Source of the DNA: Asticcacaulis excentricus
GTDB lineage: Bacteria; Pseudomonadota; Alphaproteobacteria; Caulobacterales; Caulobacteraceae
Direction of reading: 5' to 3'
Length of the DNA: 64,000 bases
Assembly: GCF_003966695.1 (NCBI RefSeq)
Contig: NZ_AP018827.1
Coordinates: forward strand, 744,001 to 808,000
Position 1 is the first letter of the stretch, and the number at the start of each line of letters is the position of its first letter. The translations under genes were made by a program, and so were the position numbers. A model generated the notes under the pieces. That model did no database searches. It was not told the origin of the DNA and worked only from the letters and a program-made list of their open reading frames with translations. Positions 7,046-38,772 of the stretch are shown here, piece by piece.

Positions 7046-8275
7046 TCAGTACTCGGCATTGAGCGCTTTCAGACGCTCACCGGCCGGGTCTCGGCGGTGG
7101 TTGAAGACCAGCGCCACAAACAGGATCAGGGACAGACCGGTGGCCAGAACAAACCCGTACTGCGGCCCGCCAAAGACATCCGACACCGCGCCCATGGCCA
7201 GAGGGGCGACGACGGCGCTGAGGCAGGTGAAGAACAGAATCACGCCGCCGGCCGCGCCGTGCTGCGCCTTGCGGAAGCCGGATATGCCCTTGGAATTGAT
7301 CGTCGGGTACATGACCGACATGAACAGGCCTGACAGGGGCAGGCTATAGACCGCCACCGCCTGCCCGCCGATCAGGGCCGCCACGAAGCAGGCCAGAATG
7401 GCCCCGGCGCACAGCAGCAGCACCAGCGTCCATTTCAGGCGCGCCAGCATCCACACCCCCAGAAAACGCCCGGCGGCGCGCAGCACAAAGAAGACGCTGA
7501 GGGCATACAGCGCCAACCATACGGCCGGTCCCTGATAGCCTTTGAGCAGGGTCGGCATCCACACATAGATAGCGGTTTCCACCCCGACATAGAGCATGGC
7601 GAGCGCCGAAAAGGCCAGGGCATAGGGATCACGCACCAGACCCAGCGAAGCTTTCAGGCTAAAAGTCTCGCTCGCGGCCGTCTGCCGCTCGGGATAGCGC
7701 ACCACAAAGGCCGTTATGATCAGCAGTGTACACAGCGTCCCGGCAATCACATAGAGCCACTTCCACGACGCGCCCGACACCAGAAGCTGCGTGACGATCA
7801 GCGGGCCGATGATGGCGCCCACGCCGAAAAAGCCCTCGACCATATTCATGACGCGCGTATGGCTTTCGGTGGAGGTGGAGATGTCGCCAATCAGGGCCAG
7901 GGCTCCGGTTTTGAACACCCCGATGGCCAGACCTGAAATGAACAGCAGACAGGCAAAAAAGAGAAAATCATTACCGACGGCAAACAGGAACGAATTCAGC
8001 GCAAACAGGCTCAACCCCAGAATGATCGTCCATTTACGCCCCAGACGATCGGCCAGAAATCCCAACCCCAGACCGGCAATAGCGATGCCGCCCATGGTGG
8101 CGTAATGAAACGCCCCCGCCTCGGTCATGCTCAGGCCGTAGTCGCGGATGACTTCGGGAATGATGACCCCCACCGCGTCGGTCGTCATGGCGAACATCAT
8201 GAACATCAGATAGGTCAGCCCGGTAATCAGGGCGATATTAGCCGGACGGGCCAGATGAGGCGCAGATGTCGTCAT
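7046..8275 (-). CDS. MFS transporter, probable inner-membrane sucrose/sugar carrier
   Basis: A 409-residue major facilitator with twelve hydrophobic segments. The characteristic loop 2-3 motif appears as GFLADRLGRKW. It probably carries the sugar imported by the TonB receptor across the inner membrane, the role of SuxC in Xanthomonas. It is on the same strand as the receptor but is separated from it by a strong terminator and tandem repeats, so it likely has its own promoter just upstream of 8275. Substrate is inferred only from context. Confidence 0.88.
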   Translation of the reverse strand: MTTSAPHLARPANIALITGLTYLMFMMFAMTTDAVGVIIPEVIRDYGLSMTEAGAFHYATMGGIAIAGLGLGFLADRLGRKWTIILGLSLFALNSFLFAVGNDFLFFACLLFISGLAIGVFKTGALALIGDISTSTESHTRVMNMVEGFFGVGAIIGPLIVTQLLVSGASWKWLYVIAGTLCTLLIITAFVVRYPERQTAASETFSLKASLGLVRDPYALAFSALAMLYVGVETAIYVWMPTLLKGYQGPAVWLALYALSVFFVLRAAGRFLGVWMLARLKWTLVLLLCAGAILACFVAALIGGQAVAVYSLPLSGLFMSVMYPTINSKGISGFRKAQHGAAGGVILFFTCLSAVVAPLAMGAVSDVFGGPQYGFVLATGLSLILFVALVFNHRRDPAGERLKALNAEY

Positions 8276-8323
8276 GGAGCGGTTCCCTGTGTTTTGTTGT
8301 TATACGTCCAGAAGCCGTAAGCG

Positions 8324-8370
8324 AGAAAAAAGAACGGGAGCGGGCCGCAGAGGGGGTGCGACCCGCTCCC
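8324..8370 (-). terminator. Rho-independent terminator downstream of the sucrose TonB receptor
   Basis: On the minus strand a nine-base perfect stem (GGGAGCGGG / CCCGCTCCC, 8362-8370 and 8336-8344), with a further inner CGCA/TGCG pairing, is followed by GTTCTTTTTTC. It lies after the receptor stop and before the MFS gene. Confidence 0.75.
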
Positions 8371-8390
8371 GATGCCTTCACGCTAAGGCA

Positions 8391-8500
8391 TTTTTTGACG
8401 CCTCATGTGTATCCCAAAAGTGGTGCCCACTTTTGGGCATGAGGCTTTTTTGACGCCTCATGTGTATCCCAAAAGTGGTGCCCACTTTTGGGCATGAGGC
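8391..8500. repeat. Two tandem copies of a 55-base palindromic repeat
   Basis: 8391-8445 and 8446-8500 are the same 55-base unit, head to tail. Each contains nested inverted repeats: GCCTCATG / CATGAGGC outside and CCCAAAAGTGG / CCACTTTTGGG around a three-base loop. The stop codon of the receptor gene at 8502 follows the second copy at once. A relative is at 60841-60903. This looks like a REP-type dispersed element that was duplicated in place. Confidence 0.85.
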
Positions 8501-8501
8501 T

Positions 8502-10946
8502 TTAGAACCGATACTTCAGGCTGATCGTCGAGGTGCGGCCATTGATGGCGCGGGCGCGCACATAGTTGGTCGCATTGTTGGTGATCGCGCCTTCTTCAAC
8601 CTCGGTGATCCCCAGGACGTCAAAGGCATTGTTGACGTTCAGCGAGACGGTCAAGTCGTCCGTCAGGCTGTAATCGGCAAACAGGTTGGTCTGCACGTAG
8701 CCTGGCATGACCAGTTGGTTGTCGTCCTGCGCGTAAGCGTCGGTGGTGCCGACAAAGTTTGCGCCGAACTCCAGCTTGTCCATCTTGTAGGTCGGCGTGA
8801 ACTGGAACACCCATTCGGCCTGACGGCGCGGACGCTTGCCGACCGCAGTCGGGCTCAGGGCGTCCTTGGTGATCTCGGCCTTGGTGTAGGTGGCCCCACC
8901 GTTGAGGCTGAGATTGCCGATGCGATAGGCGCCTTCAAACTCGATGCCCTTGGCCTCGTACACGCGGTCAAAGAACCTCTGCGAGGTGGCTTCGAAATTC
9001 TGCTCCTCGGTTTCGGCAGCAAAGGCCGTCACAAAGACACTAAGCGGGCCGCTGCGGTACTTCACGCCGGCTTCGGTCTGCTTGACGAAGTCGATGGCGT
9101 CTTCCCGCGAGACCGAACCGTCGTCACGCACCTTACCGAACAGCAGGCGGTCGGCATTGGCGCGCGCGCCCTTCGAATAGCGGGCGAAGTAGGACAGGTG
9201 GTCCGTGGCGCGGTAGTTGGCCCCCAGCGAGTAGGAGGTGTAGCTCCAGTTATAATTGACCGGCTTGGCCGCCGCGTAGTTGACGAACGAGACGCTCTTT
9301 TCCGGATTCGAGATGACGCCGTCACCATTGACGTCGAAATTGGCCATCTGGGTCGAGGCCGCATAGGTGCCGCGGGCCTTGCCTTCATCCTGACGCACCG
9401 AGGCTTCGAGCGTTAGCTTGCCCCATTCGCCGCTGGCGATAACATAGGGGGCCACGATGTCGTACTGCACATCATAATGACGGGTGCAGCAATTGCCCCA
9501 CACCGGCACGCCGTAAGCAAACAAGCCGTTTTGCGACAGGTTGGTGTTGCCGGCATAGAGGTTGAGCAGGCGCGCATTGTCACCGGCCACTTCCATGGCG
9601 TAGCTGTTCCACACCCAGTCCATATTGATCGTCTGCGACGAATTATAGAGACCAAAGGTCAGGTCGATCTTCGAGCCCAGGGCGTCAAACGTCTTTTGCA
9701 GCTTGAGGTCGTTGGCCGAATTGTCGAGGCTGTTCAGGCGCGTATTGAAGGTGTGCATGATCATGGCCAGACCCGTATAGGTCGAACCGGCATTTGGCCC
9801 ATTGGCCACCACAAGGCGCGTCCCCGCTGTGCCGAGGGCTGAATTTATACCCGACACAATCTCCGCCGAAGTACCCACCGTCGCCGGGAAGGGCGCGATA
9901 AAGTTGGCCTCGGTCTTGGCGAAGCGAAACTTGTCGCTCAGCGTCCAGCCGCCGCCGATGTCAAACTGCGCTTCACCGTTGAAGACAAGGCTTTTCGGGG
10001 CCATGCCGTCGCGCACATTGGTCACCGAGCGATTGTTGCTGCCGTTCAAACCGGCGTCCTGCATGAAATAGACCGAGTGGATGGTGTCGGACTTGGCATC
10101 TAGCCCCGGTGCCGACGACCATTTCGGGTCGCCATTGGTGCCCGTCACCTTCATCGGCATGGGCAGGTAACCGATCGACTTGTCATTCAGATATTTGACG
10201 CCCAGACGCAGGAAGCCGTTATCGAACTTGCGCGTAATATTGGCCTTGATCTGCCCGCCCTGATTGGCGGTGTAACCGGCCTTGCGCGGCCCTTCGCCAG
10301 AGCGGTAGAAACCTCCGATATGAAAGTCGATCTTATCCGACAGCGCGCCGCCATATTCAAAATCACCGCGCGTCTGACCGAAGTCGATACCCTGCGTCAG
10401 TTGCAGCGTACCGCCTTCCTTCGCACCGGTCTTCGAAATGATATTGATGATACCGCCCGGTGAATTGGAGGCCAGAGTCGAGGCCGTGCCGCCGCGGATG
10501 GCTTCGACGCGACCGACCGTCAGATCGGTACGCAGGAAGATGTCGGCATTACCAAAGGCGATGTCGCCGAACTCCAGAATGGGCAGGCCGTCTTCCTGAA
10601 GCTGAAGGAACTTGGCCCCGCCGGCCGCGACCGGCAGGCCGCGCACGGCGATATTGGCATTGCCTTCGCCGCCGGTCGATTCGGAGCGCACACCGGGGAT
10701 GTTGCGGAAGACTTCGGCGGCCGAACGCGGCGCGAACTTCTGCATTTCCTCGACCTGAATGGCGCTGACCGAGATCGAGGTGTCGAGCTTGTTGGCCTTG
10801 CGCGCCACACCGGTGACGATCACTTCGGTCACCCCCGAATCGGCGCTGGTATCAGCGGCCTGATCCTGCGCCGAAGCGGGTGAACCCAGAACCGCCATGA
10901 GCGCCACCAACGAAACCCCGCCGGTCGTCCATATCGACTTAGACAT
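8502..10946 (-). CDS. TonB-dependent outer-membrane receptor, probable sucrose uptake
   Basis: A receptor of about 814 residues. A signal peptide (MSKSIWTTGGVSLVALMAVL, cleaved after the alanine in SPASAQ) precedes a TonB-box-like stretch (EVIVTG), a plug domain and a 22-strand-type barrel ending in the required aromatic residue (SLKYRF). The start at 10946 is preferred over the longer frame: AGGAGG lies seven bases upstream and the signal peptide begins there. It corresponds to SuxA in the Xanthomonas sucrose system. A LacI-type palindrome lies about 100 bases upstream of the start. Confidence 0.93.
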   Translation of the reverse strand: MSKSIWTTGGVSLVALMAVLGSPASAQDQAADTSADSGVTEVIVTGVARKANKLDTSISVSAIQVEEMQKFAPRSAAEVFRNIPGVRSESTGGEGNANIAVRGLPVAAGGAKFLQLQEDGLPILEFGDIAFGNADIFLRTDLTVGRVEAIRGGTASTLASNSPGGIINIISKTGAKEGGTLQLTQGIDFGQTRGDFEYGGALSDKIDFHIGGFYRSGEGPRKAGYTANQGGQIKANITRKFDNGFLRLGVKYLNDKSIGYLPMPMKVTGTNGDPKWSSAPGLDAKSDTIHSVYFMQDAGLNGSNNRSVTNVRDGMAPKSLVFNGEAQFDIGGGWTLSDKFRFAKTEANFIAPFPATVGTSAEIVSGINSALGTAGTRLVVANGPNAGSTYTGLAMIMHTFNTRLNSLDNSANDLKLQKTFDALGSKIDLTFGLYNSSQTINMDWVWNSYAMEVAGDNARLLNLYAGNTNLSQNGLFAYGVPVWGNCCTRHYDVQYDIVAPYVIASGEWGKLTLEASVRQDEGKARGTYAASTQMANFDVNGDGVISNPEKSVSFVNYAAAKPVNYNWSYTSYSLGANYRATDHLSYFARYSKGARANADRLLFGKVRDDGSVSREDAIDFVKQTEAGVKYRSGPLSVFVTAFAAETEEQNFEATSQRFFDRVYEAKGIEFEGAYRIGNLSLNGGATYTKAEITKDALSPTAVGKRPRRQAEWVFQFTPTYKMDKLEFGANFVGTTDAYAQDDNQLVMPGYVQTNLFADYSLTDDLTVSLNVNNAFDVLGITEVEEGAITNNATNYVRARAINGRTSTISLKYRF

Positions 10947-23942: not shown

Positions 23943-26423
23943 ATGACCGATCTTAACCGTCGCCGCCTGCTGCAAACCGCTGCCGTCACCGGGGCGGCCC
24001 TGACGGCACCGCACGCCGTAGCGGCACCGAAGGCGACCGAGCCCGTCATCGACTTTTTCCCACAGGACGACCTCGGCCCGCGTGAGCGGGTATCGCTCGA
24101 TCTCGACTGGCGCTTCACCTTTGGCCACGCCAGCGATATGAGCCGCGATTTCGATTACGGGCTGGCGCTACGTACCCACGCCAAGCAGGGCGCGCGCGTC
24201 GCCACCTGCGTCGGCGCGGATTTCGATGATTCCAACTGGCAAAAGATCGACGTACCGCACGACTGGGCCGTCGCCCTGCCCTTTGCGCAAGGCGCCAAAG
24301 GCCCCATCGCCAATGGCGAGGATGAGCCGGACATGCTGGCGGCGCACGGCTATAAACCCATCGGACGCGACTTCCCCGAAACCTCTATCGGCTGGTATCG
24401 CCGGGCGGTGCCGGTGTCGCCGGCGGATAAGGGCAAGCGTCTGTGGATCGAGTTCGACGGCGTGTTCCGTAACGCGCTGATTATCTTCAATGGCTTCATC
24501 CTGAAACGCCATGAGAGCGGCTACACCTCGTTTCAGGTTGATATCACCGACTTTATCAATACGGACGACAAGCCCAATATCCTGACCGTGCGCGTCGATG
24601 CGACCGAAGGCGAAGGCTGGTTCTACGAAGGCGCGGGCATCTATCGCCACGTCTGGCTGGTGAAGACCCATGCCGTGCATATCCCGCAATGGGGCGTCTG
24701 CGTGCGCGGAAAGACCGACGGCACGGTCGAGATTGAAACCACGGTGCGCAATGCCTCCGCTCAGTCGCGCAGCGTCAAACTGACCTCGGCCATCGGGGGT
24801 AAGGAAGCGCAGGACGGGGCCACGGCTGAAGTGGCGGCGGGCGAGTCCGCCACCGTGCGTCAGACGCTGAAACTGGCCAACCCCATCCTGTGGTCGGTCG
24901 ATACACCGCACCTCTACCGGCTGGAAACAACGGTTGATGCGGACGACGGCGCTCAGGACAGGGTGGTGACGTATTTCGGGCTGCGCGATATCCGCTTTGA
25001 CGCCGAAAAAGGCTTTCTGCTCAATGGGAAGCCGGTCAAACTTAAAGGGACCAACAACCATCAGGACCACGCGGGGGTCGGGGCCGCCATCCCCGATGCC
25101 TTGCAAGTCTGGCGGTTGCAGCAACTGAAAGACATGGGCTCAAACGCCTATCGCTGTTCGCACAATCCACCGACGCCCGAAGTGCTGATGGCCTGCGACC
25201 GGCTGGGCATCCTCGTTATCGACGAAACGCGCAAGATGTCGTCGTCGGAAGACGGTCTCTATCAACTCGACGGCATGATCCGCCGCGACCGCAACCATCC
25301 GTCGGTCATCGCCTGGTCGATCTGCAACGAAGAACCGCTACAGGGCACCGAACGTGGCATCGAAGTCGCCCAAACCATGAAGGCCCTGTGCAAGCGCCTT
25401 GACCCCACCCGCCCGGTGACGGCGGCGCTCGACAATTCTTACGGCAAAGGCATCACCTCGGTCGTCGATGTGCTGGGCTTCAACTATCGCCATCACCTGA
25501 TGGAAAAGTTCCACGCCGACTATCCGAACATCCCCATCTATGGCTCGGAAACCGGCTCAACGGTCTCAACGCGCGGCGAATACGTCAATGACCCGGCGCG
25601 CTCCGTACTGCGGGCCTATGATACCGAGCATCCGTGGTGGGCCTCGACCGCCGAAGCCTACTGGCCGCTGTTCGATGAGAAGGCCTTTATTGCTGGCGGC
25701 TTTATCTGGACCGGCTTCGATTATCGCGGGGAGCCGACGCCCTATAACCGCTGGCCGGCCATTTCGTCGCAGTTCGGCATTCTCGACACCTGTGGCTTCC
25801 CGAAGGACAATGCCTTCTATTACCGCGCCTGGTGGAAGAATGAGCCGCTTCTGCACCTGTTCCCGCACTGGAACTGGGAGGGCAAGGAAGGGCAAAATAT
25901 CCCCGTCTGGGTGCATTCGAATCTCGATGCCGTCGAACTGTTCGTCAATGGTAAGTCGCAGGGCAAGAAGACCGTCGTTAAAAACCGCCACCTCGAGTGG
26001 GATGTGGCCTATCAGCCGGGCAAGATTCAGGCCTTTGGCTATAAGGGTAACAAGGTGGTGATGAAGGCCGTGCGCGAAACCGCCGGACCGGCGACGAAGC
26101 TGGTCCTGACGGCCGATCGCACCACGCTCAAGGCCGATGGCCGCGATGTGGCGGTGTTCAAGGTCGAAGCCTTTGACGCCAAGGGCCGTCCGGTGCCGAA
26201 AGCCGATAATCTGGTGAAATTCTCGCTGTCCGGTGGCGGGGCGGTGATCGGCGTGGGCAATGGTAATCCGGCTAGCCACGAGGCCGACAAGGCTTCTGAA
26301 CGCAAGCTGTTCAACGGTCTGGCACAGGCCATTGTGCAAACCGGACGTTCGTCCGGGCGGATCACGGTGACGGCCTCGGCAGAGGGGTTGAAACCGGCGA
26401 GCGTGACCCTGATTACCGCTTAG
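23943..26423 (+). CDS. GH2 beta-galactosidase, Tat-exported (GalB type)
   Basis: An 826-residue GH2 enzyme. A twin-arginine leader (NRRRLLQTAAVTG) suggests export in folded form. A sugar-binding domain and an immunoglobulin-like domain precede the TIM barrel. The acid/base Glu is in WSICNEEP near residue 462 and the nucleophile Glu in IYGSETGS near 535. Extra C-terminal beta domains (residues 600-826) match the GalB-like subgroup, which differs from E. coli LacZ. It probably trims galacto-oligosaccharides in the periplasm. Specificity (beta-galactose versus other sugars) is inferred from the locus. Confidence 0.9.
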   Translation: MTDLNRRRLLQTAAVTGAALTAPHAVAAPKATEPVIDFFPQDDLGPRERVSLDLDWRFTFGHASDMSRDFDYGLALRTHAKQGARVATCVGADFDDSNWQKIDVPHDWAVALPFAQGAKGPIANGEDEPDMLAAHGYKPIGRDFPETSIGWYRRAVPVSPADKGKRLWIEFDGVFRNALIIFNGFILKRHESGYTSFQVDITDFINTDDKPNILTVRVDATEGEGWFYEGAGIYRHVWLVKTHAVHIPQWGVCVRGKTDGTVEIETTVRNASAQSRSVKLTSAIGGKEAQDGATAEVAAGESATVRQTLKLANPILWSVDTPHLYRLETTVDADDGAQDRVVTYFGLRDIRFDAEKGFLLNGKPVKLKGTNNHQDHAGVGAAIPDALQVWRLQQLKDMGSNAYRCSHNPPTPEVLMACDRLGILVIDETRKMSSSEDGLYQLDGMIRRDRNHPSVIAWSICNEEPLQGTERGIEVAQTMKALCKRLDPTRPVTAALDNSYGKGITSVVDVLGFNYRHHLMEKFHADYPNIPIYGSETGSTVSTRGEYVNDPARSVLRAYDTEHPWWASTAEAYWPLFDEKAFIAGGFIWTGFDYRGEPTPYNRWPAISSQFGILDTCGFPKDNAFYYRAWWKNEPLLHLFPHWNWEGKEGQNIPVWVHSNLDAVELFVNGKSQGKKTVVKNRHLEWDVAYQPGKIQAFGYKGNKVVMKAVRETAGPATKLVLTADRTTLKADGRDVAVFKVEAFDAKGRPVPKADNLVKFSLSGGGAVIGVGNGNPASHEADKASERKLFNGLAQAIVQTGRSSGRITVTASAEGLKPASVTLITA

Positions 26424-26560
26424 CGGACGCTCACTTGCCTGACCTTTACACATCACCATCTGAGACTGGTCAAACAACAATCCCCTAAAACAGGCCGTTG
26501 CACGCCCTTTTTTGCCTGCAACCACACTTTTTGCTGGCCACGCCGTGAGTCTGACGCCAT

Positions 26561-26590
26561 AATTTATCAGACAAATAAATGGACGAAAAA
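26561..26590. promoter_or_regulatory. Shared AT-rich motif upstream of lacZ-type gene
   Basis: TTTATCAGACAAATAAATGG followed by an A-rich tail; it aligns with the site at 19024-19051. It ends about ten bases before the ATG at 26601, a position suited to repression. Confidence 0.45.
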
Positions 26591-26597
26591 AGGGTAA

Positions 26598-29750
<3,153 letters not shown>

Positions 29751-30134
29751 GGGTCAAGATGCAGGGGCCGCAAGGCCCCTGCACCCCGATGTATGTGGCA
29801 TGAAGCCATTATATAGTTACCGCAGGCGTGCCGCTCTGACACACGAAACGCTCGCCTTTCCCCAAAGGGAAGAAAAGACATTTTCTCAAATAAATACATG
29901 TATTAAGTCGACACACCCTAAGGTTATCACCGCCTTAAGAGATGTGATTTTCAATTTCTTAATAATCGCAAGATCAGGTGAAACGAATCTTTATTAAATA
30001 TTAATTTCTCCTGAACAGTGGTGTTTTAATTGTTTATTTACTCAATTTAAAAATGAAAGATTAACTACATTTACCGGCCTGTCTATTGCTGATCTTCTGT
30101 GGCCCGTTTGGGGGCAAATACACAGGAGACTGAG
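29751..30134. other. AT-rich intergenic region before the holdfast locus
   Basis: A 384-base gap with no convincing gene. A perfect nine-base GC hairpin with a GCAA loop opens it (29761-29782). From about 29870 the sequence is far more AT-rich than the rest of the window, as expected for a strong promoter region. TTAA-containing stretches near 30026-30040 (TTAA, seven bases, TTTA) and 30061-30075 weakly resemble CtrA boxes. Confidence 0.6.
29761..29782 (+). terminator. Perfect hairpin after the lacZ-type gene
   Basis: GCAGGGGCC and GGCCCCTGC pair fully around a GCAA tetraloop, 11 bases after the stop. No T-run follows, so it may be an mRNA-stabilising 3' hairpin or an atypical terminator. 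Confidence 0.55.
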
Positions 30135-30740
30135 ATGAAATATCTTTCCCTAATCGCCGTCGCCGGTCTGGTTCTGGCCGGTTCGGCTCAGGCGCAAACC
30201 GCCTCGAACAATCAGAACAACTCGTCCAACATCAAGGCGCAACTGAACGCCAAGATCGACAATGTCACCAATGACGTATCGGCGACCGCTGCCGCCATCG
30301 GCAACAGCTTCACCGCCGAAGGCTCGAGCCTGAACGGCCTCAACAACTATCAGCGCTTCTTCGGGGACGCGACGTCCAACCTTTCGACGACCATCACCAA
30401 TGTGACGGGCGATGTCAGCGCCACTTCGGCCGCCATTGCCAACACGGCGACGGTGAAAGCCGACTGGTCGGGTGCCGTGTCGAACACCCAGTACGTCAAT
30501 TACGACCCGTCGGCGGTGCTGAACGCCACGGTCTATAATGTGGACAAGTCGGTCAGCGCCACGGCGGCGGCCATCAGCAACTCGGCCAGCTTCACCACCG
30601 ACTTCAGCAGCCTGAACTCGACCCAGGTCAATACGGCTGCGGTCAATGCCTATGCCAACACCACCATCGCGGGCGTGGCGGGCAAGGTGGACGCCACGGC
30701 GGCGGCCATCGGAAACACCCTGACGGTCAAGGGTTTCTGA
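30135..30740 (+). CDS. Secreted protein with four ATAAAIGN-type repeats (candidate curlin-like holdfast component)
   Basis: A 201-residue protein with a signal peptide (cleaved at AQA-QT) and low-complexity Asn/Thr/Ser/Ala content. Four imperfect repeats, spaced roughly 45 residues apart, share a VSATAAAIGN-type core (VSATAAAIGN, VSATSAAIAN, VSATAAAISN, VDATAAAIGN). HfaA, encoded next, carries a related ATATAIGN segment. I do not recognise a named family. Position before HfaA and two CsgG-type genes makes it a likely exported, self-assembling envelope or holdfast-anchor protein, possibly filling the role of HfaD, which is not seen here. AGGAGAC lies before the ATG. Confidence 0.8.
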   Translation: MKYLSLIAVAGLVLAGSAQAQTASNNQNNSSNIKAQLNAKIDNVTNDVSATAAAIGNSFTAEGSSLNGLNNYQRFFGDATSNLSTTITNVTGDVSATSAAIANTATVKADWSGAVSNTQYVNYDPSAVLNATVYNVDKSVSATAAAISNSASFTTDFSSLNSTQVNTAAVNAYANTTIAGVAGKVDATAAAIGNTLTVKGF

Positions 30741-30752
30741 TGATCCGGAAGG

Positions 30753-30780
30753 GAGCCCGCCGCGCAGGCGGGTTCCTCTT
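30753..30780 (+). terminator. Terminator/attenuator between the repeat protein and hfaA
   Basis: A nine-pair stem (GAGCCCGCC / GGCGGGTTC, one G-U) with a five-base loop is followed by a pyrimidine run CTCTTT. It should reduce read-through, giving more of the first protein than of HfaA and the CsgG-type proteins. Confidence 0.65.
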
Positions 30781-30801
30781 TCCCGTTATGGAGCCATAGA
30801 C

Positions 30802-31224
30802 ATGCGAACATCCGTCCTTCTCACCGGCCTCGTCTTTACCGGCCCGTTACTGGCCCTGCCCGCCGCCGCTCAGACCTCGGACCTGCGCGCGCTGGAAAAC
30901 GGCTATGGCAATGGCCGACGGCTGGAAAACCAACCTTTCACCCCCACCACGCGCGATGCCAATGGCAACCGCCTGATCGTCAACGGTATCATCCAGTACG
31001 ACGACGCCAATAGCCGCTACAGCCAGTCGAGTTCCAACGGCGGCAGCCTTCTGTCGAACAATAGTCTCCTGACGCCGCAGGGGACGGCCACGGCCACGGC
31101 AATTGGCAACCTGTTGTCGGTCACGGTCAGCGGCAGCCACAACACGGTCATTCTCAACAGCCGTCAGGACAATTCCGGCAATGTGTCCGCCGTCCTGAAC
31201 GGTCGCAAAACGACCGGTGAATAA
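30802..31224 (+). CDS. hfaA: Holdfast anchoring protein HfaA
   Basis: A 140-residue exported protein. After the signal peptide (ends AAAQT) it has the stretch TRDANGNRLIVNGIIQ that I associate with HfaA, then a curlin-like tail (ATATAIGNLL, GSHNTVILNSRQDNSGN). HfaA is a small curli-like subunit that helps fix the polysaccharide holdfast to the cell pole in stalked Caulobacterales. It is followed, with a slight overlap or a short gap depending on the start used, by CsgG-family genes, as in hfaAB. Identity rests on recalled sequence features and context. Confidence 0.8.
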   Translation: MRTSVLLTGLVFTGPLLALPAAAQTSDLRALENGYGNGRRLENQPFTPTTRDANGNRLIVNGIIQYDDANSRYSQSSSNGGSLLSNNSLLTPQGTATATAIGNLLSVTVSGSHNTVILNSRQDNSGNVSAVLNGRKTTGE

Positions 31225-31261
31225 CACCTCCCCGCTTTCACCCCTACCCGGATACGCGCAG

Positions 31262-32107
31262 ATGCCCCCCACCCTTCGCCTCTTCTTCGCCCTGAGTTGC
31301 GCCGCAGGCTCGCTATCGCCGGGTCTGGCCACCGCGGCACCTCCGCTTGCGGAGGTGACTCTCAATGAAACGCCGGTGACGCCCGCCTTGCGCTGCCTCG
31401 CCCACCGCCCGTCTCTGAACGGCCTGCCGCGACTGGCCGTCGGGCGCATCGGCGACCTGACGGGCAAGGTCGATTTCGATACCGGCGCCAAGATCACGCA
31501 AGGTGCGTCGTTGTTTGCCGTCAGTGCGCTGGGCTATGCCGGGGTCCCGGTGGTCGAGCGTCTCGACAATTCCGTGGCCGAGATCGAACTGAACTATGCG
31601 CGGCAAAAGCTGCTGTCGGATACGCCGGAGCGCGCCGGGCAAAGCGGCGACAATTTCCGCCCCATTCTGGCCGGGCAGATCGCCGGGTCGCGCTATTACA
31701 TCGTCGGCGGCATTACCGAACTGAACTACAATATCCGCTCCGACGGCTACGACGCGGCTATCGGATCGCAGGCCCTGCCCGGCGTGCAGGGGCAGATCAG
31801 CGGCCGCACCTATGTGCTCAATGTCGCCGTCGATCTGCGGCTGGTCAACACGCAGACCCAGCAGGTGGTGGACACCGTCACCTTTCAGAAGCAGGTGATC
31901 GGCGTCACCAACGACCGTCGCCTCAATGGGGGCAGTGAGGATATCGGCCTGCTGCTGCAAGGCGGCAACAGCCGTCAGGAGCCGCTTCAGATGGCGGTGC
32001 GCGAACTGGTCGAACGCTCGGTCTATCACCTGATCGCGCCGCTATGGACCGCCACTGACGCCCGCGCCTGCCTTAGCGAGGCCGGTCTGACAGCGGTGCA
32101 GCCGTGA
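31262..32107 (+). CDS. CsgG-family protein, first tandem HfaB paralogue
   Basis: About 281 residues. The CsgG-like core includes LAVGRIGDLTGK, DTGAKITQGASLF, NFRPILAGQIAGSRYYIVGGITELNYNIRSDG and a conserved C-terminal ELVERSVYHL. CsgG/HfaB proteins form outer-membrane secretion pores. The ATG at 31262 begins directly with a signal peptide and is preferred over the GTG at 31217 inside hfaA. The leader has a cysteine (ALSCAAG), but the lipobox is poor, unlike its lipoprotein neighbour. It overlaps the second paralogue by four bases. The two share their motifs block by block, so they arose by duplication. Confidence 0.85.
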   Translation: MPPTLRLFFALSCAAGSLSPGLATAAPPLAEVTLNETPVTPALRCLAHRPSLNGLPRLAVGRIGDLTGKVDFDTGAKITQGASLFAVSALGYAGVPVVERLDNSVAEIELNYARQKLLSDTPERAGQSGDNFRPILAGQIAGSRYYIVGGITELNYNIRSDGYDAAIGSQALPGVQGQISGRTYVLNVAVDLRLVNTQTQQVVDTVTFQKQVIGVTNDRRLNGGSEDIGLLLQGGNSRQEPLQMAVRELVERSVYHLIAPLWTATDARACLSEAGLTAVQP

Positions 32108-33048
32108 AACGCCTGATCTTTTGCCTACCCCTGCTGCTTTCGGCCTGCGCCAGCGTCACCGCCGACCCGCAGACGGGCCTCTACGCCACGCCTGTGGGCA
32201 ATGCCCCAGCCACGCCCAACCTGACGCCCTACAGCGCCGATCTGACCTGTCTTCAGCAGGCGGCGCTGGTCACGCACAAGCCCCTGCCGCGCGTGGCTGT
32301 GGGCCGTATCGAGGACCTGACCGGCAAACGCGACTTCTATACAGGGGCCAATATCACGCAGGGCATCGCCCTGTTCGCCCAGTCGGCCCTGTCGCGTGTC
32401 GGCCTGCCACAGGTCGAGCGCGGTGATCGCGACATCTCCGACTATGAACTGAAGGCCGCCATGGACCACGTCCTGTCCGACACGCCGGATCAGGCGGGCA
32501 ACGATCCGGACAATTTCCGCAAGGTCTATGCCGGACAGATCGCCGGGTCCGACTACTACATTTCCGGCGGTCTGACGGAACTGAATTACAATATCCGCTC
32601 GGACGGGGTCGATCTGCGCGCCGGGGGCACGGGCAGCGATGATCCGGCGGGCAGCTTCGTGTCGCGACGCTTTGTGATGAATATCGCGCTTGACCTGCGC
32701 CTGATCGACACGCGGTCTCAGGAGATCCGGCGCGTCACCGCCTATCAGAAGCAGATTGTGGGGCGTGAGGTGAAGCCCGGCCTCTTCACCCTGCTCGACG
32801 GGACCATGCTCGACCTGTCGGGCGGGTTCAGCGAAATGGAGCCCATCCAGTTGAGCGTCCGCACCCTGGTCGAACGCAGCGTCTATGACTTCGCTGCCGG
32901 GCTTTACGGTATAGACCCGTCGGTTTGCCGCAATGGCGGCGTGGCGACGACTCAAAGCCCGGACAGTCTTAACGCTGTCGAACCCCGCCCGCCCTATCAG
33001 GGGCCCTATCTGGATCGCCGCCGCTGGAGCCGCGAATCCGCCCGATAG
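32104..33048 (+). CDS. hfaB: CsgG-family outer-membrane lipoprotein HfaB
   Basis: A 314-residue CsgG-family lipoprotein with a clear lipobox (LLLSAC). The core matches its upstream paralogue: VAVGRIEDLTGK, YTGANITQGIALF, NFRKVYAGQIAGSDYYISGGLTELNYNIRSDG, and TLVERSVYDFAAGLYG. HfaB is the presumed secretion pore for holdfast anchor proteins. The C-terminal 45 residues are proline- and arginine-rich and absent from the first paralogue. The four-base ATGA overlap shows translational coupling. Confidence 0.85.
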   Translation: MKRLIFCLPLLLSACASVTADPQTGLYATPVGNAPATPNLTPYSADLTCLQQAALVTHKPLPRVAVGRIEDLTGKRDFYTGANITQGIALFAQSALSRVGLPQVERGDRDISDYELKAAMDHVLSDTPDQAGNDPDNFRKVYAGQIAGSDYYISGGLTELNYNIRSDGVDLRAGGTGSDDPAGSFVSRRFVMNIALDLRLIDTRSQEIRRVTAYQKQIVGREVKPGLFTLLDGTMLDLSGGFSEMEPIQLSVRTLVERSVYDFAAGLYGIDPSVCRNGGVATTQSPDSLNAVEPRPPYQGPYLDRRRWSRESAR

Positions 33049-33126
33049 GCCACTCAACCCACCTTAGATCTTTATGATTTTTGGTAGAAACATAATGATC
33101 CAGATTTGTTCAGCCCCTCGCCGGGC

Positions 33127-33141
33127 GGTGGCTTTGCCACC
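33127..33141 (+). repeat. Small hairpin after hfaB
   Basis: GGTGGC / GCCACC around TTT, followed nearby by a second GC hairpin, about 80 bases after the hfaB stop. No T-run, so its role is uncertain. Confidence 0.4.
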
Positions 33142-33186
33142 TTGGCCGCCGCCTCAATGGCGGCTTGAGCGGAATGAGTCCACTAA

Positions 33187-33286
33187 AGCGATGTGCGGAA
33201 AAGTGTGAGCGGCTTTCCGCAAAAAATCGCGACAAAACAATAATTTAGAGCGAAATGGCGTTTCCACCCAAAGTCATTTCGCTCTA
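33187..33286. repeat. Dispersed palindromic element, copy 1 (between convergent genes)
   Basis: A 100-base element nearly identical to 38773-38893. It contains a perfect twelve-base inverted repeat (TAGAGCGAAATG at 33246-33257, CATTTCGCTCTA at 33275-33286). It sits between the 3' ends of hfaB and the response regulator, four bases from the latter's stop, and may act as a bidirectional terminator. Confidence 0.85.
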
Positions 33287-33290
33287 GAAA

Positions 33291-33905
33291 TCATTTCACT
33301 TTAGCCGCCAGAGTCAGGGTTTCGCACAGTTGCACCATGCGCTCGGCCGTGGTTTGCGCGTCGGCCAGTTCGACCTCTTCAGGTTGCGCCAGCATGGATT
33401 TCAGGGCGCGGCTCGACTGTTCCAGCTTTGAAAGCGCCAGCGTCACCGCCTCATCCCTGAGACGGTTCTCTTCCTGAAGCGTGCGCAGGGTCTGACGCAC
33501 CGCCGCCTCTTCGCGCGCGCTTTTCAGCACGTAGGACAACTGATGCGACACCAGCCGCCAGTTCAGCGGCTTGATCACAAACGACGTCGCGCCATTGGCA
33601 AAGGCCTTGTCCACGGCCAGCATATCTTCGCGTCCGGTGGCCACCACCACCGGGACGTGGCGGTGCGTCACATCAGCACGCATCAGGCCCAGCAGCTCAA
33701 AACCGTCCATGCGCGGCATGTCGAGATCGAGCAGCACGATATCATAGGTGGTGCGGCCCATCTTCGTCCAGGCATCGGCGCCGTCTTCGGCCACCTCAAC
33801 GCTGACATTGGGCGTCGCCAGATGCGTCAGGGCAAATTCACGTAAGATAGGGTCGTCATCGACCACCAGGAGGCGCGCCGCTTCGAAGGTGACAAAATAG
33901 CTCAT
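33291..33905 (-). CDS. Response regulator with C-terminal helical extension
   Basis: A 204-residue protein. The receiver domain covers residues 10-130 (LLVVDDDP, phosphoacceptor Asp in VLLDLDMPRMDG, Lys in FVIKPLN). The rest is helical and coiled-coil-like, without a DNA-binding or enzymatic domain. It lies ten bases after the TadG-like gene and is likely co-transcribed. No kinase is adjacent on the same strand. It may act by protein-protein contact. Confidence 0.88.
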   Translation of the reverse strand: MSYFVTFEAARLLVVDDDPILREFALTHLATPNVSVEVAEDGADAWTKMGRTTYDIVLLDLDMPRMDGFELLGLMRADVTHRHVPVVVATGREDMLAVDKAFANGATSFVIKPLNWRLVSHQLSYVLKSAREEAAVRQTLRTLQEENRLRDEAVTLALSKLEQSSRALKSMLAQPEEVELADAQTTAERMVQLCETLTLAAKVK

Positions 33906-33915
33906 CGCAGGCTCC

Positions 33916-35157
33916 CTATTGCGTCAATGCCGGCATGGAACGGTTCGGCCCGACGCCTTCAGGGACGGGCACGCCGGAACCGGCATAGTTTTTGTTGATC
34001 ACCAGTACCGGGTCCCTGCGCAGGATGACGGTGCGCGCCACGATCACGCTCCACGCCGAATCCTGCGCCACGCGCCCGGCGGTTTCGATCTCAAGCGTCG
34101 CATTGGGGATATAGATGGTCCCCAGAAGCTGGCTGACGCGATCCGACTTGATGGTGAAGGTCTGCGTGTTTTCGCGCGACGTCGCCATCAAAAATCCGGC
34201 GAAACGTCCTGATTTACGGGCTGTCAGGCGCACCTCGCCGCGGTCGGAAATATCGATCTTGTCATCGCCGCCAAAGATCAGCACCACATCGTCACCGGTC
34301 AGTTGCGCCATATTCGACATTTGCACCCGCGACATAAAATAGTGCTCACCGGGCATCAGGTGGACGCGGCCTGATCCGCCGATGATAAGCAGGCCGCAAT
34401 GCACCCCCGGCGGCAGGGTGATCGACTGCGTGTTCAGCACATTGATCTGAATCGGCAAACCGATACAGGGATAGGGCGGTTTCAGGTCCAGCGTGGTGAA
34501 GGGGTCGCCGATGGTCATGGCCCCCTCGCCCGCCTGGGGTCGCGTGATGCCGGTGACCTTGCCTGCGGTCTGGATGCGCTCGGCCTCGATCATCGCCGCG
34601 GGTTCGACCGTGATGCTGTGATTGGCGTGGATGGCGCAGCCGGGGGCCTTGATCTGGGCTGTGTTTTGCACGCTCAGGCCACCGTCCTGCGTTTGCAGCA
34701 CGCACAGCGGTGTCTTCTGCATATTTTCGGCGCGCGCCTTTACGGTCAGGGTGGAGGCGAAATCAATGGCGCTGAAGATGGGTTTGCGCTGAGCCACCCC
34801 CGTCACCTCGACCATGCCCTTTGGCAAATCCGCCGTAGCGGTAAACTCCACGGTCAGTCCTTCGGGCAGGGGGTTGGCTTGAAGATAGGCGGTCTGGGTG
34901 GCAAAGGTGGTGACACCGGAGGTATTCTGCCCATAGGTCGCCAGAGTTAGCCGACCGGCCCCGGCCAGCGCCCCGGCGTCCGCGGCATCCTGAAGCCGGC
35001 TCTTGTCGCGGTTGTACGCATTCAGCTCGATCGCCCCGCCGACGGCCAGCATCAAGGGCACGGCCAGCAGCGCAACCGTGATCCCGGCGTGCCCGTCACG
35101 GGCCCCCGGAAAGCGCTTCAGCAAGCGCACATAGCGATCAAACCGGCCTGATCTCAT
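33916..35157 (-). CDS. TadG-like pilus assembly protein
   Basis: A 413-residue protein with an N-terminal transmembrane segment in the TadE/TadG context (GHAGITVALLAVPLMLAVGGAIELNAYNRDKSRLQDAADAGALAGA), then a periplasmic region rich in beta structure. These proteins are minor components or assembly factors of Flp/Tad pili. No tad ATPase, secretin or flp gene is near, so it is an orphan. It pairs with a response regulator in a two-gene operon, an arrangement I cannot explain from known systems. Confidence 0.85.
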   Translation of the reverse strand: MRSGRFDRYVRLLKRFPGARDGHAGITVALLAVPLMLAVGGAIELNAYNRDKSRLQDAADAGALAGAGRLTLATYGQNTSGVTTFATQTAYLQANPLPEGLTVEFTATADLPKGMVEVTGVAQRKPIFSAIDFASTLTVKARAENMQKTPLCVLQTQDGGLSVQNTAQIKAPGCAIHANHSITVEPAAMIEAERIQTAGKVTGITRPQAGEGAMTIGDPFTTLDLKPPYPCIGLPIQINVLNTQSITLPPGVHCGLLIIGGSGRVHLMPGEHYFMSRVQMSNMAQLTGDDVVLIFGGDDKIDISDRGEVRLTARKSGRFAGFLMATSRENTQTFTIKSDRVSQLLGTIYIPNATLEIETAGRVAQDSAWSVIVARTVILRRDPVLVINKNYAGSGVPVPEGVGPNRSMPALTQ

Positions 35158-35307
35158 GTCAGCCTTGTAACACGGGCCTGTTAACAGCCCCTTTCCACAA
35201 CCTAAACGCCTGTATTTTTATGCGTTTTTTATATAACTCCGTGATGCGACAAAAGCGCACGGTAAAACCGGTTTCCCCTTTGGCGAGACATGCTTTAGCG
35301 TCCGTCT

Positions 35308-38300
35308 ATGCGCTCAGACGCCCGAATCAGCACCTCACGCCGACGTCAGCCGGGTTTCCATAGCCGGTTGAACCGGCTGGTTATTGGCTGCGTGCTGCTG
35401 GCCTGTTTGCCGGTCGCGGCGCTGTTTGTGGTCAATGAGGCCCATCGCTATGGCGAAACGCGCTGGTCCACGCTGAAGGCCGCTGCCGACGTGCTGGCGT
35501 CCAGCGCCTCGGAAAGCGTCGAAACGGGCGACGCGCAAGGCGCGTTCCGCGCTTTGCGCGCTGTTACGCGCACGCCCGGTATCGTCTATGCGCGGGTAGA
35601 GACGGCTCAGGGCGTGCTGGCCGAAACCGGGGCCGGGGTGCGGCTGAAATCCGATGTCAGCATCGAAGACAAGGGCAAGACGCCGTCGCTCAGCCACCTT
35701 CTGACCACCGGTTCCATCGAAATCCGCTCGCCCATCCGCCACGAAGGGCGCACGCTGGGCCACGTGGTGGTGGTGCATAAGGCCAGCGGCCTCAGCGCCG
35801 GGCTTCTGAGCACGCTGGCGGGTATCGGCCTGATGGCGGTGGCGGCCGCGGCCATTGCGTTGCTTGTCGCCAACCGGCTGCAACACCGCCTTGTCAAACC
35901 GCTGACCGATCTCACCGAGACGCTCGCCACGGTGACGCAGAGCGGGCAGTTCACGCGCGTCGAGACCGAGGCTGAGGATGAGGTGCGCACGCTGGTGGAC
36001 GGCTTCAACCTGATGGCCGAAGCCATCGACAAGCGCGACCGGCAGATCGAAGCCCACGTGCAGCACCTTGAGGACGAGGTCGCTGCCCGCACCGAAGACT
36101 ACCGCCTGGCCCGCGACGAAGCCAACGCCGCCAACGCCGCCAAGTCCGAGTTTCTGGCCACCATGAGCCATGAAATCCGTACGCCGATGAACGGCGTGAT
36201 GGTCATGGCCGAATTGCTGGCCAGCGAGCCTTTACCGCCCAAGGCGCGCCGTCACGCCGACACCATTGTGCGTTCCGGGCGCAATTTGCTTTCCGTTATC
36301 AACGACATTCTCGACTTCTCCAAGATCGAGGCCGGGCGCATGGACGTCGAAATCAGCGACGTCGATGTGGTGGACCTGATCGACGAGGTGGTGGCCCTGT
36401 TCCACGACCGGGCGCGCGACAAGGGGCTAGAACTGGTGGCTTTTGTGCATCCGGACGCGCCGCGCCGGGTGCCCGCCGATACGGTGCGGCTGGGGCAGGT
36501 CATCGCCAATCTGGCGTCCAACGCCGTTAAATTTACCGAACGCGGACGGGTGACGCTGAAACTGCTGCCCGACCGTCATCCTAACCACTGGCGGCTGGTG
36601 GTCTCTGACACCGGCATCGGCATTGCGGCGGACAAGCTCGACAGCGTGTTCGGCGCCTTCACGCAGGAAGACCAGACCACAACGCGGCGCTTCGGCGGCA
36701 CGGGGCTGGGCCTGTCCATCGCCAAACGTCTGGTCGAGGCCATGCACGGGGCCATCGCCGTCAGCAGCGAACAGGGCAAGGGGACGTCGTTTCATGTGCG
36801 GCTGCCGCGTCAGGCGGACGCCCCGACCGCCGCCCCGCCGCGCCTTACGGCCCCCGCCCGACTGCATCTGGCCGTCGCGGCCCCGGCTCTGGCCCACGCG
36901 CTGAAAGCCCGACTGGAAGCGGCCGGGTTCACCCTCAGCGCCGAAGCCCCCGACCTTATTCTGGCCGATGCCGTGCACCGCGTGTCTCTTGCCACCAAAG
37001 CCGCGCCGCTGGTCCTGCTGGCCGATATCCGCGACGCAGAGGCCGAGTTGTGGCGCCAAGACGGACGCTGCGCGTCGGTGCTGGGTCTGCCCTTGCGCCA
37101 CAGCGATCTTGACCGCCTGATCACCGCCTTTGCCGAAGGCGCGCCTCTGCACGTGGACGCGTCAGACGCCCCTGAAACCGTTGGCGTCCACTACCCTGCC
37201 GCCCGCGTGCTGGTCGCCGACGATGCCGAGGTCAATCTGGAGGTGGCGCGCGAATCGCTCAGCCGCTTCGGCATTGCGTGCGTGACCGCCGCCAACGGCG
37301 CCCAGGCCCTGAGGCAGATGGGGACGCAGGCATTTGATCTGGTGCTAATGGACGGCTCCATGCCGGAAATGGACGGCTTTGAGGCCACGCGGCGCTGGCG
37401 GGCGGGCGAAGGCGACGTGCACCTGCCCATCGTCGCCCTGACGGCACACGTCGTAGGTAAAGCCGCCGAGGAATGGCGGGCCGCGGGCATGGACGCCGTG
37501 CTGCACAAGCCTTTCACGCTGGCCGCGCTCGGCGAGGTGCTGAACCGTTTCCTGCCGCATCTGGCGGTGACCGTTGAAGGACCTATGGCGGAAATGCCGG
37601 TGCCCGATACCACCCCGCTGGCGGCGGGTGAGTGGCTGGGCCCCGGTTTCACCGCCCTGCTGAAAGAGGCCGCTCCCTTCCGCGATCGCGTGGTCGAACT
37701 TTACCGCTCCCACGCCCCGGTCACCCTGAAAACGCTGGTGGCCGCCCTGAAAGACGCAGACGCCCATCAGGTGTCGTCCGCCGCCCACGCCCTGCGCTCG
37801 ATGAGCCTCAATCTGGGGGCGCGGCGACTGGCCGATCTGGCGGGCAGTATCGAGGCGCTGGCGCGTCAGACTCCGCCGGACCTGCGATTGGGGGATGGCG
37901 AAGCGCTGACCGACGCGCTGGCGGCCACGCTGGCCGAAATGGCGCAGCGCCTGCCTTCGCCCGTACCGGTCGCTGCACCCACCTTCACAGATGAGGACGC
38001 GACCCTGCTGCGGCGTCTGGATGCCGTTCTGGCGCATGGGCGGCTGGATGTCGTCTATCAGCCGATCTATGACCGGCTGGGTGAAACCATAATCTCCGCC
38101 GAGTGTCTGGTCCGCTGGCCCGCCGAAGACCCCAACCCCGTCACCCCGGCCCTGTTCGTGCCGCTGGCTGAGCGCAGCGGGCGCATTATCGGGATCGGCA
38201 AGCGCGTGCGTGAAATCGTCTTTGCCGACGCCAGACGGCTGGGCGACCTGCCGCTGGCCATCAATGTGTCGCCGGTCGAGCTTGATCAACCGGAGTTTGA

Positions 38301-38772
38301 GGCCGGTCTGCTGGCGTCGGTGCGTGAGGCCGGACTGCACCCGTCGCGCTTTGTGATCGAGGTGACCGAAACGGCCATCCTCGGTGATCCGGAGCGTATG
38401 AACAGGCTGTTTGAGCGCTTGCGCGCGCACGGCTTCCGACTGGCGCTCGACGACTTCGGCGTTGGCTATTCGTCGCTGACCGCCCTGCACCGCCACCCCT
38501 TCGACAAGATCAAGATTGATCAGGAATTTGTGCGCGGACTGGATGGCGAAGCGCGCAAGGCGCTGGAGGCGCTGGCCATCATTCAGGCCGTGTCCGGTAT
38601 TGGCCGCGCCTTCGGGATGCAGGTAGTGGCCGAAGGGGTCGAAACCGCGACCCAGCATCAGCACCTTAAGGCCGCCGGCGTACACGCCATGCAGGGCTAC
38701 CTCTTCTCGCGCCCTCTGCGTCTGGAGGCACTGGTCGAACGGCTGTCTGCACCTGCGCGTGCGGTTATTTAG
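35308..38772 (+). CDS. Hybrid histidine kinase-receiver-Hpt-EAL fusion
   Basis: A 1154-residue signalling protein. A periplasmic sensor lies between two membrane spans (about residues 20-40 and 170-192), followed by HAMP, H-box ATMSHEIRTPMNG (His near 287), ATPase domain, receiver (Asp in VLMDGSMPEMDG near 680), Hpt (AHALRSMSLNLGA, His near 827) and an EAL domain from about 920. The EAL domain keeps the key residues: Glu of ECL (in place of EAL), NVSP, EVTET, LDDFGVGYSS, KID, AEGVE and QGY, so cyclic-di-GMP hydrolysis is expected. It thus joins a complete phosphorelay to a c-di-GMP phosphodiesterase. The holdfast genes nearby are a plausible process, but the link is inference. Confidence 0.93.
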   Translation: MRSDARISTSRRRQPGFHSRLNRLVIGCVLLACLPVAALFVVNEAHRYGETRWSTLKAAADVLASSASESVETGDAQGAFRALRAVTRTPGIVYARVETAQGVLAETGAGVRLKSDVSIEDKGKTPSLSHLLTTGSIEIRSPIRHEGRTLGHVVVVHKASGLSAGLLSTLAGIGLMAVAAAAIALLVANRLQHRLVKPLTDLTETLATVTQSGQFTRVETEAEDEVRTLVDGFNLMAEAIDKRDRQIEAHVQHLEDEVAARTEDYRLARDEANAANAAKSEFLATMSHEIRTPMNGVMVMAELLASEPLPPKARRHADTIVRSGRNLLSVINDILDFSKIEAGRMDVEISDVDVVDLIDEVVALFHDRARDKGLELVAFVHPDAPRRVPADTVRLGQVIANLASNAVKFTERGRVTLKLLPDRHPNHWRLVVSDTGIGIAADKLDSVFGAFTQEDQTTTRRFGGTGLGLSIAKRLVEAMHGAIAVSSEQGKGTSFHVRLPRQADAPTAAPPRLTAPARLHLAVAAPALAHALKARLEAAGFTLSAEAPDLILADAVHRVSLATKAAPLVLLADIRDAEAELWRQDGRCASVLGLPLRHSDLDRLITAFAEGAPLHVDASDAPETVGVHYPAARVLVADDAEVNLEVARESLSRFGIACVTAANGAQALRQMGTQAFDLVLMDGSMPEMDGFEATRRWRAGEGDVHLPIVALTAHVVGKAAEEWRAAGMDAVLHKPFTLAALGEVLNRFLPHLAVTVEGPMAEMPVPDTTPLAAGEWLGPGFTALLKEAAPFRDRVVELYRSHAPVTLKTLVAALKDADAHQVSSAAHALRSMSLNLGARRLADLAGSIEALARQTPPDLRLGDGEALTDALAATLAEMAQRLPSPVPVAAPTFTDEDATLLRRLDAVLAHGRLDVVYQPIYDRLGETIISAECLVRWPAEDPNPVTPALFVPLAERSGRIIGIGKRVREIVFADARRLGDLPLAINVSPVELDQPEFEAGLLASVREAGLHPSRFVIEVTETAILGDPERMNRLFERLRAHGFRLALDDFGVGYSSLTALHRHPFDKIKIDQEFVRGLDGEARKALEALAIIQAVSGIGRAFGMQVVAEGVETATQHQHLKAAGVHAMQGYLFSRPLRLEALVERLSAPARAVI

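Follow-up and report, generated by a model that had tools for sequence, protein, structure and literature searches.

Why would a single gene group encode two CsgG-type secretion proteins, of which only one has a clear lipobox? This question is raised by a locus of Asticcacaulis excentricus (Caulobacteraceae) in a stretch of 64,000 nucleotides (contig NZ_AP018827.1, positions 744,001 to 808,000) of a nearly complete genome, hereafter the window. Here, four genes form a tight group on the plus strand, encoding a repeat protein (R), HfaA2, HfaB1 and HfaB2 (Table 1), and this R-hfaA2-hfaB1-hfaB2 group is an extra cassette in a genome that also has an intact hfaABD operon. According to the part of PMC4389571 available to us, CsgG is a homomeric ring with a lipid on each subunit, its insertion into the outer membrane requires the lipidated cysteine, and CsgG without this cysteine forms a soluble ring that does not insert. 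The best explanation, to which we give about an even chance, is that the cassette is a self-contained Hfa-type export system whose pore mixes lipidated and lipid-free subunits.

An earlier note, made from the letters of the window alone, had described two CsgG-family genes sharing four bases, with a clear lipobox in the second product only, and we could confirm both points. The two genes overlap at 32104-32107; HfaB2 has the lipobox LSAC with Cys15 and matches the lipoprotein pattern, which points to putative lipidation, and the ALSC of HfaB1 is borderline and fails this pattern. For hfaB1, the ATG at 31262 agrees better with the A. currens relative than the GTG at 31217. Among distinct sequences, the loose pattern (the PROSITE lipoprotein pattern) was matched by 2/29 HfaB1, 29/29 HfaB2, 72/72 canonical-type, 12/12 Parvibaculum-type and 8/9 single HfaB proteins, and the strict lipobox pattern by 0/29, 25/29, 65/72, 12/12 and 6/9, respectively. 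These counts leave out the loci L087 (contig end) and L156; L087 was counted as a single HfaB in the first lipobox scan and omitted from the first tree, the hairpin-2 and tail comparisons and the later lipobox counts. Judged by reading the sequences, the N termini of HfaB1 resemble type I signal peptides instead.

Class-specific changes were also observed in the part of HfaB1 aligned with membrane hairpin 2 of CsgG, for which we assumed the residue ranges of the CsgG hairpins and the numbering of mature CsgG. The Phe at CsgG position 191 was present in 0/29 HfaB1 proteins, whereas no compared row from any other class lacked it; more class-specific changes were found at positions 192, 197, 201 and 214. 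The N-terminal arm motif was present in 4/29 HfaB1, as compared with 28/28 HfaB2, 72/72 canonical, 9/9 single and 12/12 Parvibaculum-type proteins. The HfaB2 proteins of L099 and L136 (split domain) as well as L151 and L153 were left out of the hairpin-2 and arm/alternation comparisons, and the former also leaves out L087 and L156. The hairpin-2 region of HfaB1 contains no insertion or deletion, and its hydrophobic alternation is not weaker than that of HfaB2; in hairpin 1 of HfaB1, the alternation is stronger in one strand and weaker in the other. This measure decides little because it is low in canonical HfaB too. Similarly, the C-terminal tail (median 79 residues in HfaB2 versus 15 in HfaB1) is no marker of lipidation, since single HfaBs also lack a long tail. 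An AlphaFold2 model of HfaB1, whose alignment (the window protein and 77 of the 101 HfaB stretches) included lipidated relatives, had a predicted local distance difference test score of 79.2, a predicted template modelling (TM) score of 0.73 and long hairpin strands, and its best match was the membrane form of CsgG (6l7c, expectation value (E) 1e-15, TM score 0.54). The CsgG fold and its hairpins are predicted to be kept in HfaB1.

When 104 HfaB domains were placed in a tree, each of the classes HfaB1, HfaB2 and canonical HfaB lay on one side of a branch, with support of 90, 89 and 81, respectively, in the Shimodaira-Hasegawa-like approximate likelihood ratio test, and the two lipobox-free proteins of divergent pairs (see below) grouped with HfaB1 (99). 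In a second tree, to which four rows had been added (three being very divergent), HfaB1 still lay on one side of a branch (92); HfaB2 did not, because the long rows fell inside it. It is most likely that the lipobox of HfaB1 was lost in a single old event and that this state has been retained since. Across the 19 genomes with all three HfaBs, the tree distances of HfaB1 and HfaB2 correlated at 0.89 (0.83 if one genome of the window's genus was kept), and the correlations of HfaB1 and HfaB2 with canonical HfaB were 0.59 and 0.70, respectively. The numbers of shared splits (9 of 16 between HfaB1 and HfaB2, 7 and 5 with canonical HfaB) mean that topology favours joint inheritance no more than mildly. 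HfaB1 and HfaB2 form an old and conserved pair that has, for the most part, been co-inherited. No flanking gene recurred in more than 6/32 loci (31 fetched loci and the window, L104 excepted), and most recurrences were within the genus. This agrees with transmission of the cassette as a unit, perhaps in part between genera.

The cassette might also be a mere copy of the holdfast-anchor operon, redundant or in decay and with no role of its own, which would suit its patchy distribution (clear R in 32/299 family genomes). However, purifying selection appears to act on all four genes, whose ratios of nonsynonymous to synonymous substitution rates within the genus ranged from 0.05 to 0.26 (each gene being compared four times). 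HfaB2 shares 48% identity with canonical HfaB and 46% with HfaB1, and the two cassette HfaBs have kept opposite lipobox states over four genus groups. In addition, G043, G081 and G087 (g20) have an R-HfaA-HfaB locus and no other HfaB match, so that the cassette is not always an extra and a mere duplicate is impossible there. We give this reading very little chance. Nor are the two paralogues common and redundant in all relatives, a case considered in the earlier note: R was found in 5/25 genomes of the genus, the same five that have three HfaB matches, and the paralogues are diverged.

At the family level, HfaB matches (E 1e-10) were detected in 208/299 genomes and R matches in 44 at E 0.01, 32 of them below 1e-8. 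All 32 clear-R genomes were read: the order was R-HfaA-HfaB-HfaB in 21, divergent in 2 and R-HfaA-HfaB in 7, and the locus was cut by a contig end in 2. Two more loci, L110 and L060, are R-HfaA-HfaB, and L058 (same place as L106) was excluded from all counts. Hosts of the HfaB pair include A. currens DXS10W, C. vibrioides OR37, Brevundimonas aurantiaca DSM 4731 and B. mediterranea DSM 14878. The divergent type consists of R-HfaA-HfaB and a further HfaB on the opposite strand; in L108 and L109 (L153 is on the same contig as L109), the HfaB standing alone on its strand is of the lipidated type, and that of the R-HfaA-HfaB strand lacks a lipobox and has a long tyrosine/glutamine-rich tail. In the order as a whole, the R profile matched (E 1e-8) in 48/348 genomes, 33 of which lie outside the Caulobacteraceae-type family (f1). 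The 12 outside-family regions sampled, from 9 of these 33 genomes, contained 11 HfaBs. There was no tandem pair among them, and 10 had a lipobox; gene order was variable, and L257 and L259 showed no HfaB. Going by these regions, the lipid-free HfaB1 seems to have been added within the family. A far more divergent tandem pair of CsgG-type genes was noticed in L226 (5834-7761; G143, g3 Brevundimonas-type), again with a 4-base overlap and a lipobox in the second protein but not in the first, and the 14 kb that was read there contained no R or HfaA match.

The loci with one HfaB bear on a suggestion of the earlier note, one pore per substrate, by which HfaB1 and HfaB2 would form two homomeric pores, one each for R and HfaA2. 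Two pore proteins and two candidate substrates do occur in one gene group, but 7 of the 30 uncut family loci hold R and HfaA with a single HfaB, and the sampled HfaBs outside the family are unpaired; one pore can therefore serve both proteins. Moreover, insertion of CsgG depends on a lipidated cysteine (PMC4389571, in the part cited above), which is missing in HfaB1. One pore per substrate was thus dropped, two homomeric pores being highly improbable, and since one HfaB suffices in the single-HfaB loci, HfaB1 probably provides no private pore for R or HfaA2.

If the pore is mixed, R and HfaA2 would reach the periplasm via the Sec system, pass the outer membrane by way of the CsgG-type pore and, once at the surface, polymerise as an amyloid-like fibre or an anchor layer. 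The lipidated pore subunit would be HfaB2, and HfaB1 would be a lipid-free paralogue that shares its ring, is brought into the membrane by the lipids of HfaB2 and alters the pore. We infer, and only infer, the shared ring, the role of R and HfaA2 as cargo and the fibre as product. The mixed ring, suggested as a hetero-oligomeric pore in the earlier note too, leads because hairpins are still predicted for HfaB1 and its co-inherited partner is of the lipidated type. That we are dealing with a natural hetero-oligomeric amyloid pore of the CsgG type, in which lipidated and lipid-free paralogues kept across several Caulobacteraceae genera form one outer-membrane ring, seems to us possible, at somewhat less than an even chance.

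The main rival is that HfaB1 forms a soluble periplasmic ring or adaptor under a homomeric HfaB2 pore, with a CsgE-like job such as cargo gathering or gating. Several observations weigh towards it, including the missing clear lipobox and arm motif and the altered hairpin-2 region of HfaB1, the soluble, non-inserting ring of cysteine-less CsgG (PMC4389571, same part), and the result that CsgE and CsgF (PF10627, PF10614) had no match in the window's genome, the control search being positive in E. coli. Points that go against the general pattern or lie outside it come from single loci. HfaB1 of L140 and L146 passes the loose pattern; four of the 29 HfaB2 proteins fail the strict lipobox, and that of L086/L149 (one genome) passes the loose pattern only; and a proline in the lipobox makes the single HfaB of L060/L158 and an HfaB outside the family (L253) fail the pattern. 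An unpaired HfaB-like protein of L227 (G262; 7767-8594, minus strand) lacks a lipobox and keeps the hairpin-2 motif. The first L226 protein is closest to HfaB1 (47% identity), but the second tree puts both L226 proteins on long branches in HfaB2. The three g20 genomes with R-HfaA-HfaB as their sole HfaB match belong here as well. Against an adaptor stand the hairpin-2 region, free of insertions and deletions and with alternation not weaker than in HfaB2, and the hairpins predicted in the model, although its alignment included lipidated relatives. We consider the adaptor unlikely on balance, and prefer the mixed ring. As a separate observation, the unpaired gene of L227 is followed by an open reading frame (ORF) of 301 amino acids with a signal-like N terminus.

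What the cassette may serve is a different question. The earlier note had called it a holdfast-anchor locus, and the family assignments behind this name stand: HfaA2 scored 101.6 bits against the NCBIfam HfaA model, exceeding the curated cut-off of 50, and the two HfaBs scored 371.5 and 405.4 bits against NCBIfam HfaB (cut-off 300) and 45.6 and 38.4 bits against Pfam CsgG (cut-off 20.8). However, the idea that this is the organism's sole holdfast-anchor locus had to be abandoned, as a third HfaB lies within hfaA-hfaB-hfaD (L004 5900-8577) about 820 kb from the cassette. The HfaD of this canonical operon scored 338.5 bits (cut-off 100), and the order HfaA-HfaB-HfaD was also found in every canonical region fetched from 20 other second-locus genomes, and likewise in the four relatives from the genus that have the cassette. 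It could still be that the cassette serves the holdfast by strengthening its polysaccharide anchor or retargeting it, for instance in different conditions or elsewhere on the cell, as suggested by its HfaA and HfaB families and by the relationship of R to HfaD; considering the canonical hfaABD in the same genome, we regard such a role as rather unlikely, and it is compatible with a mixed pore. Two further observations concern CsgG-family genes elsewhere. The window's genome has a fourth CsgG-family match (C1:1147433-1147915, L267), which was missed by the protein search with HfaB2, and in G059 a single contig carries, at a great distance from each other, two HfaB genes of high similarity (L228, L229); one belongs to a full hfaABD, and near the other there is no HfaA or HfaD match.

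The first gene of the cassette gives some indication of the exported material. As had been noted before, the 201-residue protein ahead of HfaA has four repeats: the motif AT.AAI.N[ST] occurs at residues 50, 96, 142 and 187 (spacing 46, 46 and 45), whereas shuffling the mature protein 10,000 times gave a mean of 0.0004 and a largest value of 1. Its relation to the motif in HfaA holds too, as HfaA2 contains ATATAIGN. By reading, the N terminus of R resembles a Sec signal peptide. The statement that no HfaD is present proved correct for a full-length HfaD in the window, but R itself matches NCBIfam HfaD weakly (E 3.2e-6, 26.7 bits, under the cut-off of 100). Since all 23 scanned R proteins match this model weakly (best E 4.5e-9), R is, by sequence, a short relative of HfaD rather than an equivalog. 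Pfam gave weak and inconsistent matches only. The predicted structure of R is an all-beta repeat, and among the matches listed the top two PDB entries were the amyloids CsgA and FapC (9u4u), with modest scores. The R profile had no match at E 10 among the sequences of solved structures, CsgA included. An amyloid-like fold of R is predicted at the level of the model. The model and the Pfam and HfaD scans covered the window R and 22 of 31 R stretches, and mostly omitted the long, inverted and single-HfaB-type R proteins. Five g3 loci (L092-L096) contain a second, longer R-type gene, inverted and directly 3' of the HfaB pair (downstream of hfaB2).

Table 1. Positions in the window of the cassette genes, the hairpin-2 stretch and the leader
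Feature	Position	Strand	Remark
R (201-amino acid repeat protein with signal-like N terminus; short relative of HfaD and predicted amyloid-type substrate)	30135-30740	+	
hfaA2 (HfaA-family protein, 140 amino acids)	30802-31224	+	
hfaB1 (CsgG/HfaB family; no clear lipobox, signal peptide probably of type I)	31262-32107	+	possible earlier GTG start 31217
part of hfaB1 that aligns with membrane hairpin 2 of CsgG; the motif of the other HfaB classes is missing in the HfaB1 class	31901-31966	+	
hfaB2 (CsgG/HfaB-family putative lipoprotein, lipobox LSAC, Cys15, proline-rich C-terminal tail)	32104-33048	+	
AT-rich leader of cassette	29751-30134	+	about 45% guanine-cytosine versus about 62% around

The leader contains at 29887-29906 a 20-base block, CAAATAAATACATGTATTAA, with the palindrome TACATGTA; the block does not differ between the five genomes of the genus that have the cassette and is a possible regulator site. 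Five CtrA-like sites with one mismatch were found in the window, four of them upstream of R, compared with a chance expectation of 2.9 in the window. No sigma-70-type promoter was found at 29700-33300. In the flanks (23943-29750 and 33291-38772), Pfam identified a response regulator, a Tad-domain protein and, at 26601-29750, a glycoside hydrolase family 2 beta-galactosidase; sequence reading only suggests a glycosidase-like ORF of 826 amino acids and a large ORF resembling a hybrid sensor.

With one member lacking the lipobox and a hairpin motif, this conserved pair offers a direct test of how many lipids a CsgG-type ring needs, and a way to ask whether mixed rings exist in nature. The cassette also offers a way to ask how Hfa-type systems diversify past holdfast anchoring, and a compact model of a possible functional amyloid of Alphaproteobacteria beyond curli and Fap. 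CsgG is in use as a sequencing nanopore as well. Judged by titles and abstract openings, searches of an open-access library brought up no paper on a further hfa locus, on paired CsgG/HfaB proteins or on a mixed CsgG/HfaB pore, which may be in print elsewhere. In the available part of PMC3521004, CsgG is placed in a larger family with likely paralogues and alphaproteobacterial curli systems are described as lacking CsgE and often CsgF; a pair of this kind is not described in that part.

Among known systems, the HfaA-HfaB-HfaD system of C. crescentus (PMC6707917, in the part available) is alike in its HfaA and HfaB families, in the remote relationship of R to HfaD and in combining two surface proteins, putative ones in the cassette, with a CsgG-type pore. 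It differs in that the cassette has the order R-HfaA-HfaB-HfaB instead of HfaA-HfaB-HfaD, with the short HfaD-like gene first, contains two HfaBs, one without a lipobox, and is additional to the canonical operon. In curli (CsgA, CsgB, CsgG, CsgE and CsgF), the pore proteins likewise belong to the CsgG family, and the repeat protein is comparable in its amyloid-like predicted fold, whereas the genome with our cassette has no CsgE or CsgF match, HfaB1 has no lipidated cysteine and R has no sequence match to CsgA. Fap exports through the FapF barrel, and the R profile has no sequence match to the FapC fibril (PDB 9u4u) among solved structures. The earlier idea of a variant curli-like export system is supported: the cassette is of an Hfa-like or curli-like type and has two diverged CsgG-type proteins, R being a plausible amyloid-type substrate.

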